Of a stretch of 64,000 bases of DNA, positions 1,904-63,070 are shown one piece after another (within the stretch, counting starts at the first letter, position 1; every line of letters begins with the position of its first letter). Both the position numbers and the translations under genes were made by a program. Source of the DNA: an uncultured bacterium. Lineage in GTDB: Bacteria > Planctomycetota > UBA8108 > UBA1146. The stretch covers positions 1 to 64,000 of the forward strand of contig CAJXMG010000008.1 of the NCBI GenBank assembly GCA_913056395.1, in the 5' to 3' direction. A model generated the notes under the pieces. That model was not told where the DNA came from, made no database searches, and saw nothing but the letters and a program-made list of their open reading frames with translations.

Positions 1904-2143
1904 TCAGGAGTTGGAGTTCTCCCCGCGGTCTTCCTCCTCGACGCTCTTGTCGATGGTTTTCTGAATGTCCTGGCTGGTGTCCTTGATGCCTTTTTTAAAC
2001 TCGGTGATGCCGCGACCCATGTTGCGCATCATGTTCGGCAAGCGTCCGCCGAAAAGAAGCAGCGCGACGATGAGAATGACGCCCAGTTCAAAGGGACCCG
2101 GACTCCAGGCGAGTTGGATGAAAGGGGCGAGTGTTTCAAGCAT
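1904..2143 (-). CDS. tatA: Sec-independent translocase subunit TatA/TatE-like
   Basis: This 79-residue protein has one N-terminal membrane helix (ELGVILIVALLLFGG, residues 19-33). The Gly-Arg hinge and an amphipathic helix (RLPNMMRNMGRGITEFKKGIKD) follow, then an acidic tail. This is the TatA/MttA layout. TatA oligomerises to form the passage for folded Tat substrates. The start is the ATG at 2143 because GGAGG lies 6 nt upstream; the frame is open 18 codons further, but without a ribosome site. No tatB or tatC lies in the window. Electron-transfer and FeS proteins elsewhere in the window are the kind of cargo Tat often serves, but no Tat signal was verified. Confidence 0.93.
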   Translation of the reverse strand: MLETLAPFIQLAWSPGPFELGVILIVALLLFGGRLPNMMRNMGRGITEFKKGIKDTSQDIQKTIDKSVEEEDRGENSNS

Positions 2144-2320
2144 CGATGCCTCCAAGAAAACAGTGGAACGACTCCGAACTGTTGAATGAAATTTCAACGG
2201 ATTGGAGACGATGGATCAAGGTTGAAACCAAAGTTTCTGACCTTTAATCCACCTTTATTCTACCCTCTCCGGTCGTGGAAGGGCAAGGCTCAGATGGCGT
2301 TAAATCGCCGATTTAAGCCG

Positions 2321-2977
2321 TTATTCGGCCTCTGCACCACAAATAGCCAGAGCGATCAACTGCGACATTTGAGCGCGCAGGGCGGCCAGCAATTCCCGTT
2401 CAGAAGCTTCAAAGGAAACGTAGATCTTTCCCGATTCAGGATCTTCCGGAACGCGAACGCTGAACTCTCGTGAAGAGACTCGAGTACCATCGCTGACTTG
2501 ATAGACCCACCAGCGAACGACGTAACGACCCTGCAACATTCCCGGAGTTCGCGGGTCGCGAAAACTGATGCGTTCGATGCGTCCGGTGAGAACGTGGGTG
2601 GCGTCCACTGCGCGACCGATGTCAGACCATGGAACTTCATCGGTGTCGGTGTGAAAAACCTGATCTTCCACTTTACGATCGGAGATGGGAGTGACGGTGG
2701 GGCAGTTACCACTCATTTGCAATTCAAGTGATTGAGCAAGTCGGATTCCTTCTTGGGACTCGTAGTGCCAACGCAGCGCTGAAACCCTTTGGCCTTTTTC
2801 CTGAAAGGGAACGATCAGCAGTTTTGCTTCACCGAGATCGACTTCCGGAGGGAGTCTTTCTTCTGTGGATGAACACCCCACGCTGATCAAGAGGGGAAAG
2901 AGTAAAACGGCGTAAAAAGGCATTTTAAAGGCCGAATACGGACGTTTGGCAAAGGATTGAAAAAGTTTCTCGAGCAT
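2321..2977 (-). CDS. lipoprotein of unknown function, downstream of the LPS-transport gene
   Basis: This 218-residue protein has an N-terminal hydrophobic segment ending in a lipobox (LISVGCSS, Cys about residue 36), so it is predicted to be lipidated and envelope-bound. The start at 2977 was chosen because GGAG sits 8 nt upstream; the n-region is then rather long. A later ATG at 2923 would give a shorter signal peptide but has no clear ribosome site. The mature part contains a VPF..KG stretch and an alternating-strand region (VLTGRIERISF, GRYVVRWWVYQV) resembling TolB/FlgO-type small envelope domains. I do not recognise the family. It lies 84 nt downstream of the LptC/LptA-like gene, so a role beside LPS export (an LptE-like position) is possible but only by context. 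Confidence 0.75.
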   Translation of the reverse strand: MLEKLFQSFAKRPYSAFKMPFYAVLLFPLLISVGCSSTEERLPPEVDLGEAKLLIVPFQEKGQRVSALRWHYESQEGIRLAQSLELQMSGNCPTVTPISDRKVEDQVFHTDTDEVPWSDIGRAVDATHVLTGRIERISFRDPRTPGMLQGRYVVRWWVYQVSDGTRVSSREFSVRVPEDPESGKIYVSFEASERELLAALRAQMSQLIALAICGAEAE

Positions 2978-3061
2978 GGTCAGACTCCGTATCGGTTCCC
3001 GAAATGGGAACCCCATGATAGGCCGCAGGGCTCACAAGAAAAAGGGCGATTCCCCAAGGCT

Positions 3062-6007
3062 TCAGGGTGTGGGTCGACGATCCAGTCGACCCATGCGACC
3101 CAGGCTCGATTCAATTTCTCGAAGCGACCAGCCGCCGGCACTGGGCAATGATTCGACTCGATAACCGCGTGTGCTTTGTGTGAGTTTGACCGCTCTGGAT
3201 GGTGGAAGACTCGAAACACCATCGCGAAACACCTGCACTTGTTGACGGGGGCTGCCGGTCAATTCGACGGTGCGATTGCGTGCAAGGATGCGCGCTCTTT
3301 CTGAAAGGATGCGATACGGTCCACCACGAAGATCCACCGATCCCCAGGCGAGTGCTTCATGGGCACGGATCGTCGGATCATTAGAATCTTCCCTCAACAC
3401 CAGCAGCAGTTCATCGGAACGAAGGTCGACTTTTCCAGGGGCTTCCCTGCGGTCCCCCTCGAGGTGGATGACGGCACTCAAAACCGAGGAAAGGAGTGCT
3501 TCCAGTCTTTCCGAAGATGCCTCTCCTGGCCTCGTAGTCCTCACCAGGACCACTTCCCGGGCAACGACCTCATCCTTGGGAGAGGTGCCCCTGTGGAAGG
3601 TTTGAAGCCCCTGACCGTCCTCGGAAGTGAGGCTCAATCGTTGCTGGGCCACGTCCCAAAGGAAGACTTGCCCACGAAACTCGAGAGAGTTTTCTGCCTG
3701 GGTCAGAGTGATTCCTCCGGAGCCACGAACCGATTTCAGAAGAACGGGATCACTCTCGAAATCGATGTTCGCCTCGATGGTTTTTGCATCGAGTGTCCAT
3801 GACATCGGTTGATCAGAAAGTTCTCCATACTTGCCAGGATCACTGGCGAGATAGATGCGTGCGCGTGCTTCATCGGCAAGAGTGACTTTTGAAATTGAAC
3901 GCTCGATGGTGATGGTTTTTGCTTCGATGAAGCCAGGTGATTTTTCTGCGGAAGCAACCTCGACCCGCTGCTTTTCGGGACCCTGAAAACGGAAGGTGTT
4001 TTCGACTGCGTTCCACAAAAACTCCTGTCCTTGTGCGCGCAGATTTTCATGCTCAATTCGCACCGGTACCGGAACTGTTCCCAGCGCTCTTGCCAGTTGA
4101 ATGTCACCCCAACGGGGTGCAGTGGAGGAGCCCTCGGGGGTCTCCATTTCTTCAAACTGGACCACCAATTCAGAGCAGTACAGGCCCAGGCTGGGAGACT
4201 CCAATTCACCTCCAGGACCCCTCAGGAGGCCATCTACGGCCCCTTTGCCCCTGGCCTGCCCGTCCAGGGAGGAGAGTTCCAGTGTCTCTGCGGTGAGCCG
4301 AATGCGATCTCCCATGACGATCTCCTGGCGACCATCTCCGGAGAGTTGGAGGAGACCGTTCTGCCCTGTCCAGCGCAATCGATGACTGCGTACGGTGAGT
4401 TGCTCTTCACCCTCGATTTGCATCGAAAGAGCCTCATCGTTTCCGGAGGCTTCCAGCACTTCGAGACGCTGTCGTGCATCCCATGAAAGTGACAACTCAT
4501 CTGCACGCACTTCGCCGCGTGCATCATCACCGAGCCATTGACTGGCTTTTTGAGTGGGACCTTGTGGCCACTCGATGAGGTTGGCCTGAACCTCACCCAT
4601 GAAAGAAAGGCGCGGAGAGTTGTCGACGAAGGCAACCCTGTTGGCAGAGATGCGATTCTCTCCTTCAGAGAAAGTGGCGCGGTTGTCTGCGCTGGAGATG
4701 ATTTCCAATTGGCGATCGCGGGCATTCCAGATCAGGGCTTCCCCACGGATAGCTGCACCTTGTGGGCGTTGCTCATTGACGATCACCGGTTGCCCTGCTT
4801 TGCCGACCGCCCGAAGCGTTTCCAGGTTGCCATCGCCAAAGTCAAAAGTGGCTAAATCCGCCTCTATTGACCATTTCTGGCCACCTTCGGGGCCCAGATT
4901 GTCGGAGGTTCCCGTCGCCGGTCCCTGCAAAGAACCGCGGATTCCACCGTCGAGGATGCACCGTGAAGCACCCGTCATCACCTGCGCGCGCTGGGCGTTG
5001 AAGCGCCCCGCCGGGTGGACGATGACGACGTCATCGGTGAGCTCGACATGGTCCGCTCCTTCTTTCCACATCAATCGGCGACCTTCGATGCGTGTGTCTT
5101 CATCCACAAAAACGGTGATCGGATTTTCCCGTGCTTGCGACTGGATGCTCAACAGTCGACGGCTGACAGGATCCAGTTCCATGTCGAGATAGTCGGCAGC
5201 GATGTGTTGAAGGGGAACATCCACATCCGGGTTGAGAGGGCTGGTCGCCGGCACTTCAAAAATTTTCACGCCACCATCAAAGAGTGCACCGCGCCCTTCC
5301 TTACCGAGGACCATCGGTCCGCGACAGAGGATGCGTACCTGTCCATTGGAGTCCTCTTCGGAGCGATCGATAAAGGGGCCGCTACCCTCGGCGGTCAGAC
5401 CCATCAGGATCGGTGGAGAGATCGTTAATTGCTCCAGTCCGGAGCTCGATCCGACGTTGCCCGTGAAGCCGTTGTTTCCACGTAACTCCAGTTCTGGCCA
5501 AATCATACGAACAGCGGACTGGCCCTTGAGGAGGACGTCTTCGCCGTCTGACCAGAGGATTTCGATATCCCGGGTTTCAAGTTTGGGAGAGCCTCCCGCA
5601 CCCTCTGCAAAGAGGGCACCCTCGACGCGTGCGTTCTCTGAATCCTGATCGGTGATGACCTTGTCCGCTTCGAGAAGGATGCGGTCATTCGCTTCCTGCG
5701 CATCTCCTTCGTAGACCGGCAGCTCGATTTCGGCATCGATGAGAGTGGTCTGATTGACGAGGTTCTCAGGAGAGATCACCACTCCGGATGATGCATCCAT
5801 GTGACCCTTGAGAAGGAAGCGGAGTCGTCCGCGGATCATGTCGTAGGAGCGGTAGGACATCCGGTTCTGATCGACCGGTTCTAGATCGATCTCTTCGACG
5901 TCGACGAGATCACTGTTTTCCTGTGGACCACCGAACTGGCCGGTGAGACCGAGGAAGGCGACCAGGCCCACTGAAAAGATGCCGAGAAAGAAGGAAAGCC
6001 GCTTCAT
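3062..6007 (-). CDS. very large LptC/LptA (OstA-like) LPS-transport protein
   Basis: This 981-residue protein begins with a signal anchor (MKRLSFFLGIFSVGLVAFLG) and is otherwise built from repeating beta-strand blocks. Phrases such as ILLEADKVI, IEGRRLMWKEG, IRGEALIWNARDR and LRAQGQEFLWNA recur. They match the LptA/OstA repeat idea: a strand carrying a modification term, then an RL-W or ALIWN turn. LptC and LptA normally form a periplasmic beta-jellyroll bridge carrying LPS to the outer membrane and total about 350 residues. This single chain is nearly three times that. The start codon overlaps the kdsC stop as ATGA, so translation is probably coupled. The kdsC-lptC-lptA order matches the E. 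coli arrangement. The family call rests on repeat pattern plus synteny; exact domain boundaries are uncertain. Confidence 0.72.
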   Translation of the reverse strand: MKRLSFFLGIFSVGLVAFLGLTGQFGGPQENSDLVDVEEIDLEPVDQNRMSYRSYDMIRGRLRFLLKGHMDASSGVVISPENLVNQTTLIDAEIELPVYEGDAQEANDRILLEADKVITDQDSENARVEGALFAEGAGGSPKLETRDIEILWSDGEDVLLKGQSAVRMIWPELELRGNNGFTGNVGSSSGLEQLTISPPILMGLTAEGSGPFIDRSEEDSNGQVRILCRGPMVLGKEGRGALFDGGVKIFEVPATSPLNPDVDVPLQHIAADYLDMELDPVSRRLLSIQSQARENPITVFVDEDTRIEGRRLMWKEGADHVELTDDVVIVHPAGRFNAQRAQVMTGASRCILDGGIRGSLQGPATGTSDNLGPEGGQKWSIEADLATFDFGDGNLETLRAVGKAGQPVIVNEQRPQGAAIRGEALIWNARDRQLEIISSADNRATFSEGENRISANRVAFVDNSPRLSFMGEVQANLIEWPQGPTQKASQWLGDDARGEVRADELSLSWDARQRLEVLEASGNDEALSMQIEGEEQLTVRSHRLRWTGQNGLLQLSGDGRQEIVMGDRIRLTAETLELSSLDGQARGKGAVDGLLRGPGGELESPSLGLYCSELVVQFEEMETPEGSSTAPRWGDIQLARALGTVPVPVRIEHENLRAQGQEFLWNAVENTFRFQGPEKQRVEVASAEKSPGFIEAKTITIERSISKVTLADEARARIYLASDPGKYGELSDQPMSWTLDAKTIEANIDFESDPVLLKSVRGSGGITLTQAENSLEFRGQVFLWDVAQQRLSLTSEDGQGLQTFHRGTSPKDEVVAREVVLVRTTRPGEASSERLEALLSSVLSAVIHLEGDRREAPGKVDLRSDELLLVLREDSNDPTIRAHEALAWGSVDLRGGPYRILSERARILARNRTVELTGSPRQQVQVFRDGVSSLPPSRAVKLTQSTRGYRVESLPSAGGWSLREIESSLGRMGRLDRRPTP

Positions 6008-6513
6008 GCGGGGGTCTCCGTCAGTGCGAGAATCCAGTCGCAAACCTGCCGCACAGCCCCAAAACCGCCATTTTGAGGGGTGACCACGTCTGCCGCAGCG
6101 AGTACTTCTGGCACCGCATCCGCGGGGGCGACGGCGGTCCCGGCGACTTCAAAGGCGGGCAGATCGATGAGGTCGTCGCCGACAAACACCGTCTCCTCTG
6201 CGCCGACTCCGAGTTTTTCCATCACCGCTTTCAGGCATTCTCCCTTGTCACGGATACCGGTGTGCCACTCGGTGATGCGCAATTCCTTCGCACGCAGGTC
6301 GGTGCTCTCGCTGGGTCTGCCGGAGATCCAGATGACGGCGATACCCTGATCGAGGAGGCGACGCATGCCGGCTCCGTCGGGGATGAAGAAACTTTTCGAT
6401 TCGCTGCCGTCGGAGTGGATCGTCACCCGGTTGTCGGTGAGGACTCCGTCCACATCGAGGGCGAGCAGTCGGGGCCGCAGGGGGGCCAGATGGTCGGGAA
6501 TGGTGTGCTTCAT
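6004..6513 (-). CDS. kdsC: 3-deoxy-D-manno-octulosonate 8-phosphate phosphatase
   Basis: This 169-residue HAD-superfamily phosphatase has the C0-type, capless layout of KdsC. Motif I is DVDGVLTDN (near residue 22), motif II the SGR loop (near 60), motif III the lysine of RDKGECL, and motif IV GDDLIDLPAF (near 120). KdsC removes phosphate from KDO-8-P to give KDO for the LPS inner core. The ATG at 6513 was chosen because it gives the normal family length; the frame is open for 68 more codons with no recognisable domain. It overlaps the LptC/LptA-like gene by four bases, which ties KDO supply to LPS export in one transcript. A weak ribosome site makes the exact start less sure. Confidence 0.9.
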   Translation of the reverse strand: MKHTIPDHLAPLRPRLLALDVDGVLTDNRVTIHSDGSESKSFFIPDGAGMRRLLDQGIAVIWISGRPSESTDLRAKELRITEWHTGIRDKGECLKAVMEKLGVGAEETVFVGDDLIDLPAFEVAGTAVAPADAVPEVLAAADVVTPQNGGFGAVRQVCDWILALTETPA

Positions 6514-59384: not shown

Positions 59385-61139
59385 TTGTTTCCGTTTCGTG
59401 CTTTCCGGTTTCTGGCCCCGCTGATCCGTGAGCAACGGCCGATCTTTGCCATCGGCGTCGTCCTCATCCTGCTGACGAGTCTCTCCCAGGTGGCGGTGCC
59501 ACGTCTGGTGGGCCTGGCCATTCAGAAATTGGAGTCCGGGATCGGCGTCGACCTGATTGGTCCGATTGCTCTGGCGATGGTGGGCGCAGTCCTGATCCGC
59601 GGTCTGACATCTTTCTGGACCCGGGAAACGGTGATCGCCTCCAGCCGTCGCATCGAGAAGAAACTTCGCGACCAACTCTATGAGCATATCTCGGGTCTCG
59701 ATGGATCTTTCTATTCGAAGACTCACACCGGTGATCTGATGAGTCGATTCACCAGTGACATCGAAGCGGTGAGGATGGTCTTCGGGCCAGCGGTGATGTA
59801 CTCGGTACAGACCGCTTTCACTCTCATCTTTGCGTTATCGATGATGATCCAGATCGACTGGCAACTGACGCTGTACTCGCTGATCCCGCTTGGTTTTCTC
59901 ACCGTCGCGATCCGGGTGATCGGACCGAAGGTGCATCGGGAATCGATGCGTGCCCAGGAGATGCTTTCTGGTATCTCGGTACACTCCCAGGAAAACTTCG
60001 CCAACGCCCCGGTGATCAAGGCATTCGTGGTTGAGGATGCGGAAGTCGAGCGGATGCAGCGCTTGAGCCACGACTACTTCCGCCAGAATCTGCGCATCGC
60101 CCGATTGCGAGCCATCTCCGGCAGTGCCATGTGGCTCTTCGGCGATCTGGCACTGGTCACGCTTTTGTTGATCGGCGGGATGCGCATCCTTCAGGGAGAT
60201 CTGGGTCTCGGTGACTTCGCCACCTTCAACGGTTGCCAGCTGTTGTTGATCTGGCCGATGATTGCCCTTGGCTGGGTGATGAACCTGTTTCACCGCGGGG
60301 CTGCCAGTGCGGAAAGATTGCAGGCGATACTCGATGCCAAGCCCCTCGTCGATGATTCCCGCGCGACCGGATTGACCGCTGTTCAAAAGGGTAGTGTCGA
60401 GTTTCAGAACGTTTCCTTCCGTTATCCGGAGGGAGAAGTGCCGGCACTGGAAAACGTTTCTTTCGATCTTCCACCAGGGGGAACTCTGGGCATCGTCGGT
60501 GTGACCGCCAGTGGAAAATCCAGCCTCCTCAATCTGATTCCACGATTGTCGCCGGCAACATCCGGTCTGGTCCTGATCGACGGCAAACCGATCGAGGAGT
60601 ACCCCCTCAAGGTATTGCGCGATTCGATTTCGATGGTCCCACAGGAACCGTTCCTCTTCAGCGCCACCATCGCCGAGAACATTGCGTTTGGAGTCGGTGA
60701 TGCTTCGGAGGAACAGGTGCGGGCGGTGGCTAGACTGGTTCGTATCGATCAGGAGATCGACAAGTTCCCGAACGGTTACGAGCAAAGAGTCGGTGAGCGG
60801 GGCATCACCCTCAGTGGTGGACAAAAGCAGCGCATCGCTATCGCCAGGGCAATCTTGCAAAAGCCGAGGATTCTTCTACTCGATGACGTGCTCTCCGCCG
60901 TCGATTCGGAGACGGAAACTTCCATCCTTGAGGGACTCAAGGACTGGACCCGTGACCTGACCGCTCTGATCGTTACCCACCGCCTCAGTGCGGTGACCCA
61001 TGCGGATGAGATTCTCGTTCTCGATGGGGGCAAAGTGATCGAGCGCGGTACCCACTCCGAGTTGCTGGAAAAGAAGGGCAAGTACTCCGAGTTGTGGCGC
61101 AAGCAAACCATCGAGAGTGAGTTGGAGGATCTGGAATGA
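59385..61139 (+). CDS. ABC exporter subunit with degenerate catalytic site (heterodimer partner 1)
   Basis: This 584-residue half-transporter has six membrane helices and a C-terminal ATPase. Walker A is GVTASGKSS, the signature is the intact LSGGQKQR, and Walker B is ILLLDDVLSAVDS, where the usual catalytic Glu is Asp. The layout is MsbA/LmrA-like. Start is TTG with AGGAGAG 4 nt upstream. The ATG of the next transporter overlaps its stop by four bases. Such a pair often forms a heterodimer with one active and one weak site. The substrate (lipid, drug or peptide) cannot be told. Confidence 0.93.
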   Translation: MFPFRAFRFLAPLIREQRPIFAIGVVLILLTSLSQVAVPRLVGLAIQKLESGIGVDLIGPIALAMVGAVLIRGLTSFWTRETVIASSRRIEKKLRDQLYEHISGLDGSFYSKTHTGDLMSRFTSDIEAVRMVFGPAVMYSVQTAFTLIFALSMMIQIDWQLTLYSLIPLGFLTVAIRVIGPKVHRESMRAQEMLSGISVHSQENFANAPVIKAFVVEDAEVERMQRLSHDYFRQNLRIARLRAISGSAMWLFGDLALVTLLLIGGMRILQGDLGLGDFATFNGCQLLLIWPMIALGWVMNLFHRGAASAERLQAILDAKPLVDDSRATGLTAVQKGSVEFQNVSFRYPEGEVPALENVSFDLPPGGTLGIVGVTASGKSSLLNLIPRLSPATSGLVLIDGKPIEEYPLKVLRDSISMVPQEPFLFSATIAENIAFGVGDASEEQVRAVARLVRIDQEIDKFPNGYEQRVGERGITLSGGQKQRIAIARAILQKPRILLLDDVLSAVDSETETSILEGLKDWTRDLTALIVTHRLSAVTHADEILVLDGGKVIERGTHSELLEKKGKYSELWRKQTIESELEDLE

Positions 61140-63070
61140 CCTCCAAAAAAACCGCAGAGAAGAATAAGGAAAAAGACGACGCAGAAGACTTCTACGTCGA
61201 AGAGGTGATCGATCGCCCCTTCAGCCGGGAGCTGGCGGGTCGATTGATGCGCTACCTGCGCCCCTACAAGGGGCTGGTTCTGCTGTCGGTGATGTTGATT
61301 CTCACCAACACCGCTCTCTCGTTGATCGGACCCTTGCTCATCAAGGAAGCAGTCGATGGTCCCCTGGCACTGCCCACGGAAGAGACGGAGTCGAGAGAGT
61401 TGACCGGGATCGGCCAACTCATCACCGATCTGGGAGAGGGTGCGGGCCTCAGTCCCATCGCAGTGGGTTCTTCCATCGATGAGCGAACCCAGTGGCTGTG
61501 GGTGCTTGTCGGAATCTACGCTTTCACTCTGCTGATCCAGATACTGATGCGCTACGGCGAAACGATGGTGCTCAATCGCACCGGTCAAAATGTCATGCGC
61601 GATCTGCGATTGCAGATCTTTGACCACCTGCAAAAACAGAGCGCGTCCTTCTATCACAAAAATCCGGTTGGTCGCCTGGTGACCCGTGTCACCAGTGATG
61701 TGGAAGCACTCAACGAACTCTTCACCAGCGGATTCGTCACACTGGTCGGTGATATTCTGGCGATCACCGGAATCGTGATCATGCTCTTCTGGACCAATGC
61801 GGAATTGGCTTCGATGGTACTGGCGACTGCCCCTCTGTTGTTGATCTCAACGACCATCTTCCGCCGGTTTGCCCGCAAGCACTATCGGGAGGTTCGTCGA
61901 AGACTCGCACATTTGAATGCCTTCACCCAGGAGTCGATCAGTGGCATGGAGGTGATTCAGGTTTGTCGCAGGGAGGAAGAGCAGGCCCAGCAGTACTCGG
62001 GAATCAACGGCAAACTTCAGGATGCCCATCTGAAGAGTATTTTCTGGTACGCCCTTTTCTTCCCGACGGTGGAACTGTTGTCTGTGGTTGCCCTTGGAAT
62101 CATCGTTGTCCAGGGCGGAGAGCGGATTGAGATGGGCACGGCCACCTTTGGTGAGTTCTTCCTCTTCTGGACTTATCTGACGCGACTCTTCACGCCGGTC
62201 AGGGATTTGGCAGAAAAATACAATCTGCTGCAATCGGCGATGGCTTCCAGCGAGAGAATCTTCACGGTTCTCGATACGGATACCACTTTTGCCGAGGTCG
62301 ATTCAAAGAGCGAACCGGCGACGAACAGCGAGCAGGATTCTCTCGATGAGATCCGTTTTGAAAATGTCTCATTCTCCTACGACGGAGAAACCCCGGTGCT
62401 GGAGGATGTTTCCTTCTCCGTCAAAAGGGGCGAGACCCTCGCCATCGTGGGTGCTACCGGTGCCGGCAAGAGCACGATCATCAACCTTCTTTTGCGTTTC
62501 CACGATCCGGTCGGCGGACGCTTGTTGGTCAACGGTGAAGATATCCGTGAGCATTCTCTGGAAGAACATCGACGTCGCTTTGGCCTCGTGCTTCAGGATG
62601 TCTCGGTGATGACCCGTAGCCTGGGCGAGAACATCCGTTTTGATCGGGATATTTCACGACAGCGGATCAGCGAAGCACTCGAGCAGGTCAATGGAACCGA
62701 AATCGTCGAGCGGCAGAAACTGGGCCTCGACGAACCGATGATGGAGCGGGGTCGTACCCTCTCCAGCGGTGAGCGGCAGTTGATCTCCTTTGCCCGTGCT
62801 CTCGCCGGCGATCCGGAAGTTCTCGTTCTGGATGAGGCCACCAGCCATGTGGACACGGAGACTGAGGCGAAAATCCAGGAGGCCATCGATCGAATGGTGG
62901 AGGGAAGAACTTCCGTCATCGTCGCCCACCGCCTGAGCACCGTACGCAAGGCGGACCGGATTCTGGTTCTGCACCACGGTCATTTGCGCGAGTCGGGAAC
63001 CCACGACGAACTGGTCGAAAAGGGCGGAATCTACGCACGTCTGGTCAAGTTGCAGTTCCAGTCACGCTGA
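61136..63070 (+). CDS. ABC exporter subunit with canonical Walker B (heterodimer partner 2)
   Basis: This 644-residue half-transporter has six helices and an ATPase with Walker A GATGAGKST and Walker B VLVLDEATSHVDT (the Glu present). The signature has changed to LSSGERQ. The canonical ATP site would be formed by this Walker A/B and the intact signature of the partner; the other site, made from the partner's Asp and this changed signature, should be weak. This is the pattern known from heterodimeric exporters such as BmrCD or TmrAB. A basic, Lys-rich N-terminus and a 60-residue loop in the first external region (ETESRELTGIGQLITDLGEG) are extra. Coupled to the first subunit by an ATGA overlap. 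Confidence 0.94.
   Translation: MTSKKTAEKNKEKDDAEDFYVEEVIDRPFSRELAGRLMRYLRPYKGLVLLSVMLILTNTALSLIGPLLIKEAVDGPLALPTEETESRELTGIGQLITDLGEGAGLSPIAVGSSIDERTQWLWVLVGIYAFTLLIQILMRYGETMVLNRTGQNVMRDLRLQIFDHLQKQSASFYHKNPVGRLVTRVTSDVEALNELFTSGFVTLVGDILAITGIVIMLFWTNAELASMVLATAPLLLISTTIFRRFARKHYREVRRRLAHLNAFTQESISGMEVIQVCRREEEQAQQYSGINGKLQDAHLKSIFWYALFFPTVELLSVVALGIIVVQGGERIEMGTATFGEFFLFWTYLTRLFTPVRDLAEKYNLLQSAMASSERIFTVLDTDTTFAEVDSKSEPATNSEQDSLDEIRFENVSFSYDGETPVLEDVSFSVKRGETLAIVGATGAGKSTIINLLLRFHDPVGGRLLVNGEDIREHSLEEHRRRFGLVLQDVSVMTRSLGENIRFDRDISRQRISEALEQVNGTEIVERQKLGLDEPMMERGRTLSSGERQLISFARALAGDPEVLVLDEATSHVDTETEAKIQEAIDRMVEGRTSVIVAHRLSTVRKADRILVLHHGHLRESGTHDELVEKGGIYARLVKLQFQSR

Follow-up and report, generated by a model that had tools for sequence, protein, structure and literature searches.

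A kdsC-linked planctomycete protein that very probably joins LptC and several LptA units in a single chain

Introduction

What is the protein of 981 residues that a planctomycete encodes directly behind its kdsC gene? The two genes lie in a stretch of 64,000 nucleotides from an uncultured bacterium, which was analysed as a whole and is here called the window. An earlier note on this DNA took the product for an oversized bridge of the LptC/LptA type. We come to a similar answer. Very probably, the protein is a single-chain LptC-(LptA)n periplasmic bridge within an Lpt system that is ordinary in other respects, and this reading is backed by the fold, the profiles, the gene order and the remaining Lpt parts of the genome.

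Proteins of a related kind are on record. Fusions with several OstA domains, 'as many as four' per chain, have been noted in Pfam (PMC3944529). Like the bridge, they line up several OstA domains in one chain (PMC3944529); the bridge differs from them in having about seven units, the LptC position included, in its membrane anchor and in its linkage to kdsC. No account of planctomycetes joining LptC and LptA in a one-chain bridge was found in the literature searched, which is mostly that of non-subscription journals. The automatic naming at NCBI may already label deep members of the family as LptC.

The gene pair

The product of kdsC belongs to the Kdo pathway. It scores 133.5 bits against the KdsC/YrbI phosphatase subfamily model TIGR01670 (cut-off 106.95) and retains the DVDG and GDD motifs. 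Its stop codon is overlapped by the ATG of the bridge gene in a four-base junction, ATGA, so that the kdsC-then-lptC/lptA order claimed in the earlier note holds for the window; the range of 3062-6513 that it had given covers both genes correctly, with the bridge starting at 6007 (Table 1). The overlap probably couples translation of the bridge to Kdo synthesis, which is what one has to expect of a descendant of a kdsD-kdsC-lptC-lptA locus. The bridge gene is a real gene, since homologues of equal length and with an intact reading frame occur in the genus and the family, at 46-97% identity.

Table 1. Features of the bridge locus in window coordinates; residue numbers refer to the 981-aa bridge
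Feature	Position	Strand	Basis and remarks
kdsC, 3-deoxy-D-manno-octulosonate 8-phosphate phosphatase (Kdo synthesis)	6004..6513	-	169 aa + TGA; TIGR01670
Bridge gene (LptC-(LptA)n-like, single chain)	3062..6007	-	981 aa, 107 kDa; Pfam LptD_N, AF2 + Foldseek, profile match to LptC+OstA family
Predicted N-terminal membrane helix, LptC-like anchor position	5942..6001	-	residues 3-22; helix in AF2 model; hydrophobic, conserved in family alignment
First beta domain, LptC position of deep homologue L135	5300..5872	-	residues 46-236; 14 strands; limits approximate
About six further beta units, ~100-130 residues each	3143..5299	-	DSSP of AF2 model and repeat period; limits drawn from predicted strands: residues 237-365, 376-478, 495-598, 604-722, 733-850, 857-955
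Pfam LptA/LptD_N (OstA) stretch	4301..4513	-	residues 499-569
Conserved lipoprotein gene 3' of bridge	2321..3016	-	real start probably at or after 2974

Fold and repeats of the bridge protein

The AF2 model of the bridge (mean pLDDT 80.8, pTM 0.60) starts with an N-terminal helix, continues with 69 strands and is almost wholly beta. The predicted helix gives the protein the single N-terminal membrane anchor that is typical of LptC, and the strands of the model form a beta-jellyroll with a groove of the LptA type. When the model was compared with the PDB by Foldseek, LptD chains were the best matches (5iv9_A, E 7.7e-8, probability 1.00), and LptA led the single-domain matches (2r1a_C, TM 0.78 over the length of LptA, probability 1.00). 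A different fold, which the earlier note had named as an outcome that would speak against its reading, did not emerge from the modelling of the repeat domain: the fold is LptD/LptA-like. The whole-chain TM-scores are low (0.17 to LptD). Superposing a long curved repeat on a shorter protein is expected to give such values, which are also compatible with a looser resemblance. Teneurin and DDB1, which are unrelated beta proteins, reached E-values similar to those of LptD and LptA, but at low probability.

The repeats can also be seen in the family profile. When non-overlapping profile segments of 130 residues are compared with one another, they align at multiples of about 116 residues. A score of at least 30 is reached by 38% of the segment pairs and by none of the 153 reversed controls. 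Both the length of 981 residues and the many repeats that the earlier note had reported are thus confirmed. The residue spacing gives about seven units, the LptC position included. Taken from sequence and model together, the protein is composed of one predicted N-terminal inner-membrane helix, one beta domain in the position of LptC and about six LptA-like units in the same groove-forming fold.

Individual domain models see little of this. The one stretch of the bridge that Pfam recognises is LptD_N (PF03968, the LptA/OstA domain), with 28.7 bits at a cut-off of 20.4; the same model matches 6 of 16 family members at E <= 0.01. The LptA equivalog TIGR03002 stays below its cut-off of 71.7 with 23.5 bits, and the LptC models PF06835 and TIGR04409 do not recognise the 981-aa protein; one family member matches at E 0.0075. 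If the family profile is run against all PDB sequences, LptA comes out on top as the one plausible match (8onu_A, profile positions 487-595), with a weak E-value of 0.19. The direct match between the family profile and that of planctomycete LptD is weak too (probability 22, E 0.00094).

Length of the bridge

Is the bridge really oversized? The earlier note had set 981 residues against about 350 for LptC plus LptA and had thought of a wider periplasm. This comparison ignores the stacking of LptA copies (PMC3944529, PMC10208570). The E. coli bridge is believed to contain one LptA or several, in a number still not known because the copies are separate molecules (PMC3944529, PMC10208570); one proposal has the periplasm spanned by four OstA domains, those of LptC and LptD included (PMC3944529). 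Since LptA copies are thought to be stacked there, 981 residues are not clearly longer than the E. coli bridge. Counting strands in a two-layer stack, we arrive at a length of about 14-17 nm or roughly four LptA equivalents; the estimate is crude.

One might still assume that the LPS route is the same and that the bridge is longer in order to cross a wider planctomycete periplasm, which would be an addition to the single-chain bridge and not an alternative to it. We regard this as unlikely. The chain certainly exceeds LptC plus one LptA in length, and about seven units face the four OstA domains suggested for E. coli (PMC3944529). The 14-17 nm derived from the strands, however, are close to LptC plus several LptA and call for no unusual envelope, the complete frames of the relatives vary from 793 to about 1195 residues, and an envelope measurement of this lineage was not found in the literature. 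A wider periplasm is possible, then, but not needed.

Relatives and gene order

Of the 29 genomes of the class that were searched with the family profile, 24 gave long bridge homologues, the full-length frames having about 990-1250 residues. In the remainder of the phylum the profile matched in 6 of 129 genomes. With the single protein as query, relatives were found in marine Planctomycetia MAGs, e.g., TMED53.

The distant relatives are the more telling ones. Several of them are recognisable fusions of LptC and OstA. In the homologue of locus L135 (793 aa), Pfam LptC covers residues 9-171 with 42.4 bits (cut-off 21), and C-terminal to it LptD_N is repeated in four stretches (84.8 bits, above the Pfam cut-off); L134 combines Pfam LptC with three LptD_N stretches. 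The NCBIfam cut-off for LptC, 38, is passed by L135 (45.6) and L136 (39), and with 71.5 L135 falls just short of the 71.7 required by the LptA equivalog TIGR03002. The window family and this deep LptC+OstA family are related according to hhalign (probability 99.8, E 7.4e-29, 674 columns), the alignment beginning at the N-terminus of both. Residues 46-236 of the bridge thereby align with the N-terminal part of L135, in which the LptC domain resides.

Gene order tells the same. In E. coli the locus reads kdsD-kdsC-lptC-lptA. L135 has kdsD-kdsC-bridge, L136 has kdsD-bridge, and kdsC directly adjoins the bridge gene upstream in 22 of the 26 loci inspected. In locus L026 an acetyl-CoA synthetase gene takes this place; loci L133 and L139 end at contig ends. 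As far as sequence can tell, the planctomycete locus is the E. coli arrangement with lptC and lptA replaced by one gene.

These relatives also bear on another identity. The protein could belong to the bridge-like lipid transfer proteins, be it of the AsmA/TamB/YhdP or the VPS13 kind, which carry phospholipids, and lie beside kdsC by chance. TamB and YhdP each consist of a single long chain that forms a beta groove and carries an N-terminal membrane helix, and, as do VPS13-type proteins, they share with the bridge the principle of one long beta-groove chain spanning two membranes. Foldseek indeed matched the bridge model to a chorein-domain viral protein (E 2.8e-5, probability 1.00) and to LPD-3 (E 2.8e-4, probability 0.16). 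A relation in sequence was, however, not detected: the Pfam and NCBIfam models for AsmA, DUF748 and TamB do not match the bridge up to E = 1, nor its relatives at 0.01. The LptD_N scores of the bridge, the PDB matches led by LptD and LptA, the recognised LptC domain of the deep homologues, the kdsC/kdsD linkage kept across a wide phylogenetic range and the Lpt proteins as partners all argue against a phospholipid carrier, which we therefore hold to be very unlikely.

The rest of the Lpt machine

A single-chain LptC-(LptA)n bridge needs company, and the genome provides it. The search for lptB, lptF, lptG and lptD that the earlier note had proposed found all of them: LptB (335.7 bits, cut-off 240), LptF and LptG, which are encoded in tandem, and LptD (G000:C24:33338-35560, an 830-aa frame, E 2.4e-119). 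A lack of these parts, the other outcome that the note had named against its reading, did not come about. LptE is encoded as well (C18:7056-7433, 44.7 bits, cut-off 23). The Pfam model PF04453 misses this LptD; it was detected with a profile built from 17 planctomycete LptDs, which also finds LptD in 30 of 32 relatives. LpxC, beside skp- and lpxA-like genes, and a Kdo transferase are encoded too. With all other Lpt parts present, a different LPS export route, which the earlier note had also considered, is not supported.

A shorter LptD candidate at G000:C26:13384 (PF04453 E 0.008, a frame of about 240 aa) was dropped in favour of the full-length LptD on C24. The locus of the latter (L142, 4627-7719, minus strand) adjoins a coaD-like gene, as it does in L069. 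The window further contains two adjacent ABC exporter half-transporters of 584 and 644 aa (59385-63070, plus strand), which may be an MsbA-like LPS flippase or a heterodimeric exporter.

LptD had been found in all planctomycete genomes published at the time of an earlier survey (PMC3422733), and a profile survey called the planctomycete Lpt system 'largely reduced' (PMC8871954). At least in the lineage with the bridge, LptC and LptA seem not to be missing but to have fused and diverged.

A second LptA or LptC was not found when the whole genome was searched with the deep lineage profile; the sole match was the 981-aa bridge gene. A genome scan with PF03968 missed even this gene, and its silence was not taken as absence. 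A separate LptC or LptA could be too divergent for the profiles or lie outside the assembly, which may lack about 5% of the genome. That the bridge might be a paralogue serving as a scaffold or outer-membrane tether, beside an ordinary LptA and LptC that escaped detection, gains something from the blindness of Pfam searches to divergent members (PF03968 as mentioned, and PF04453 with its weak, probably spurious match although a real LptD exists), yet it is highly improbable in view of the more sensitive lineage profile finding the bridge gene only, of one bridge gene per genome by the family profile, and of the kdsD-kdsC-lptC locus that this gene occupies.

The exception to this count is genome G015, with two bridge genes in one assembly (L010 and L021). 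The pair includes a near-copy of the bridge gene of G009 (L014), and the presence of both genes is probably due to bin contamination.

Proposed mechanism and implications

How would the single-chain LptC-(LptA)n bridge work? By analogy with E. coli, from which the steps between groove and LPS transfer are borrowed, the N-terminal anchor and the first domain most likely play the part of LptC and would take its place on LptB2FG. The units in the middle would stand in for stacked LptA copies, and the chain would end at LptD. LPS would slide along the continuous groove, driven by ATP hydrolysis at LptB.

The bridge has something of each of its counterparts. With LptC it shares the N-terminal inner-membrane helix, the periplasmic beta domain and the gene position directly after kdsC, or after kdsD-kdsC in L135; LptC, however, has about 190 aa and one beta domain, to which the bridge adds about six units, and the LptC models recognise the deep homologues and not the bridge itself. 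With LptA it has the open-groove beta fold in common, its units repeating as LptA copies stack. LptA, in contrast, is a separate soluble protein that has a signal peptide of its own and stacks on itself, whereas the units of the bridge are covalently joined and fixed in number. The N-terminal domain of LptD belongs to the OstA superfamily, and LptD chains are the best structural matches, but a beta barrel is not recognised in the bridge and the LptD gene is separate.

A bridge made of one chain lets one ask how many units are needed to cross the cell envelope. In such a chain their number is set, so that one can insert or delete units genetically and follow the consequences. The contacts at which thanatin-type peptides disrupt the bridge, LptA-LptA and LptA-LptC (PMC10208570), join separate chains and would be lacking in a fused bridge.

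The downstream lipoprotein

Behind the bridge gene follows a conserved gene for a lipoprotein, in the class and also in at least two further families (L132, L133). The lipobox cysteine is invariant in 13 of 13 aligned homologues. The model (pLDDT 82.9) matches FlgT, PelC, GNA1162, LpoB and CsgG by Foldseek, and a fold of the CsgG/PelC/LpoB/FlgT type is predicted. That the protein might be LptE is ruled out by this predicted fold and by the clear LptE on C18.

It is the gene linkage that suggests a functional tie to the bridge. Speculatively, the lipoprotein may assist where the bridge reaches the outer membrane. One can go further and imagine the covalent bridge with its fixed units as a ruler that sets the distance between inner and outer membrane and is held at the latter by this dedicated PelC/CsgG-type lipoprotein; we offer this tentatively and consider it rather doubtful.

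The lipoprotein gene is followed in the window by a TatA-like gene (1904-2197, minus strand). Locus L026 keeps the order of bridge, lipoprotein and TatA-like gene.
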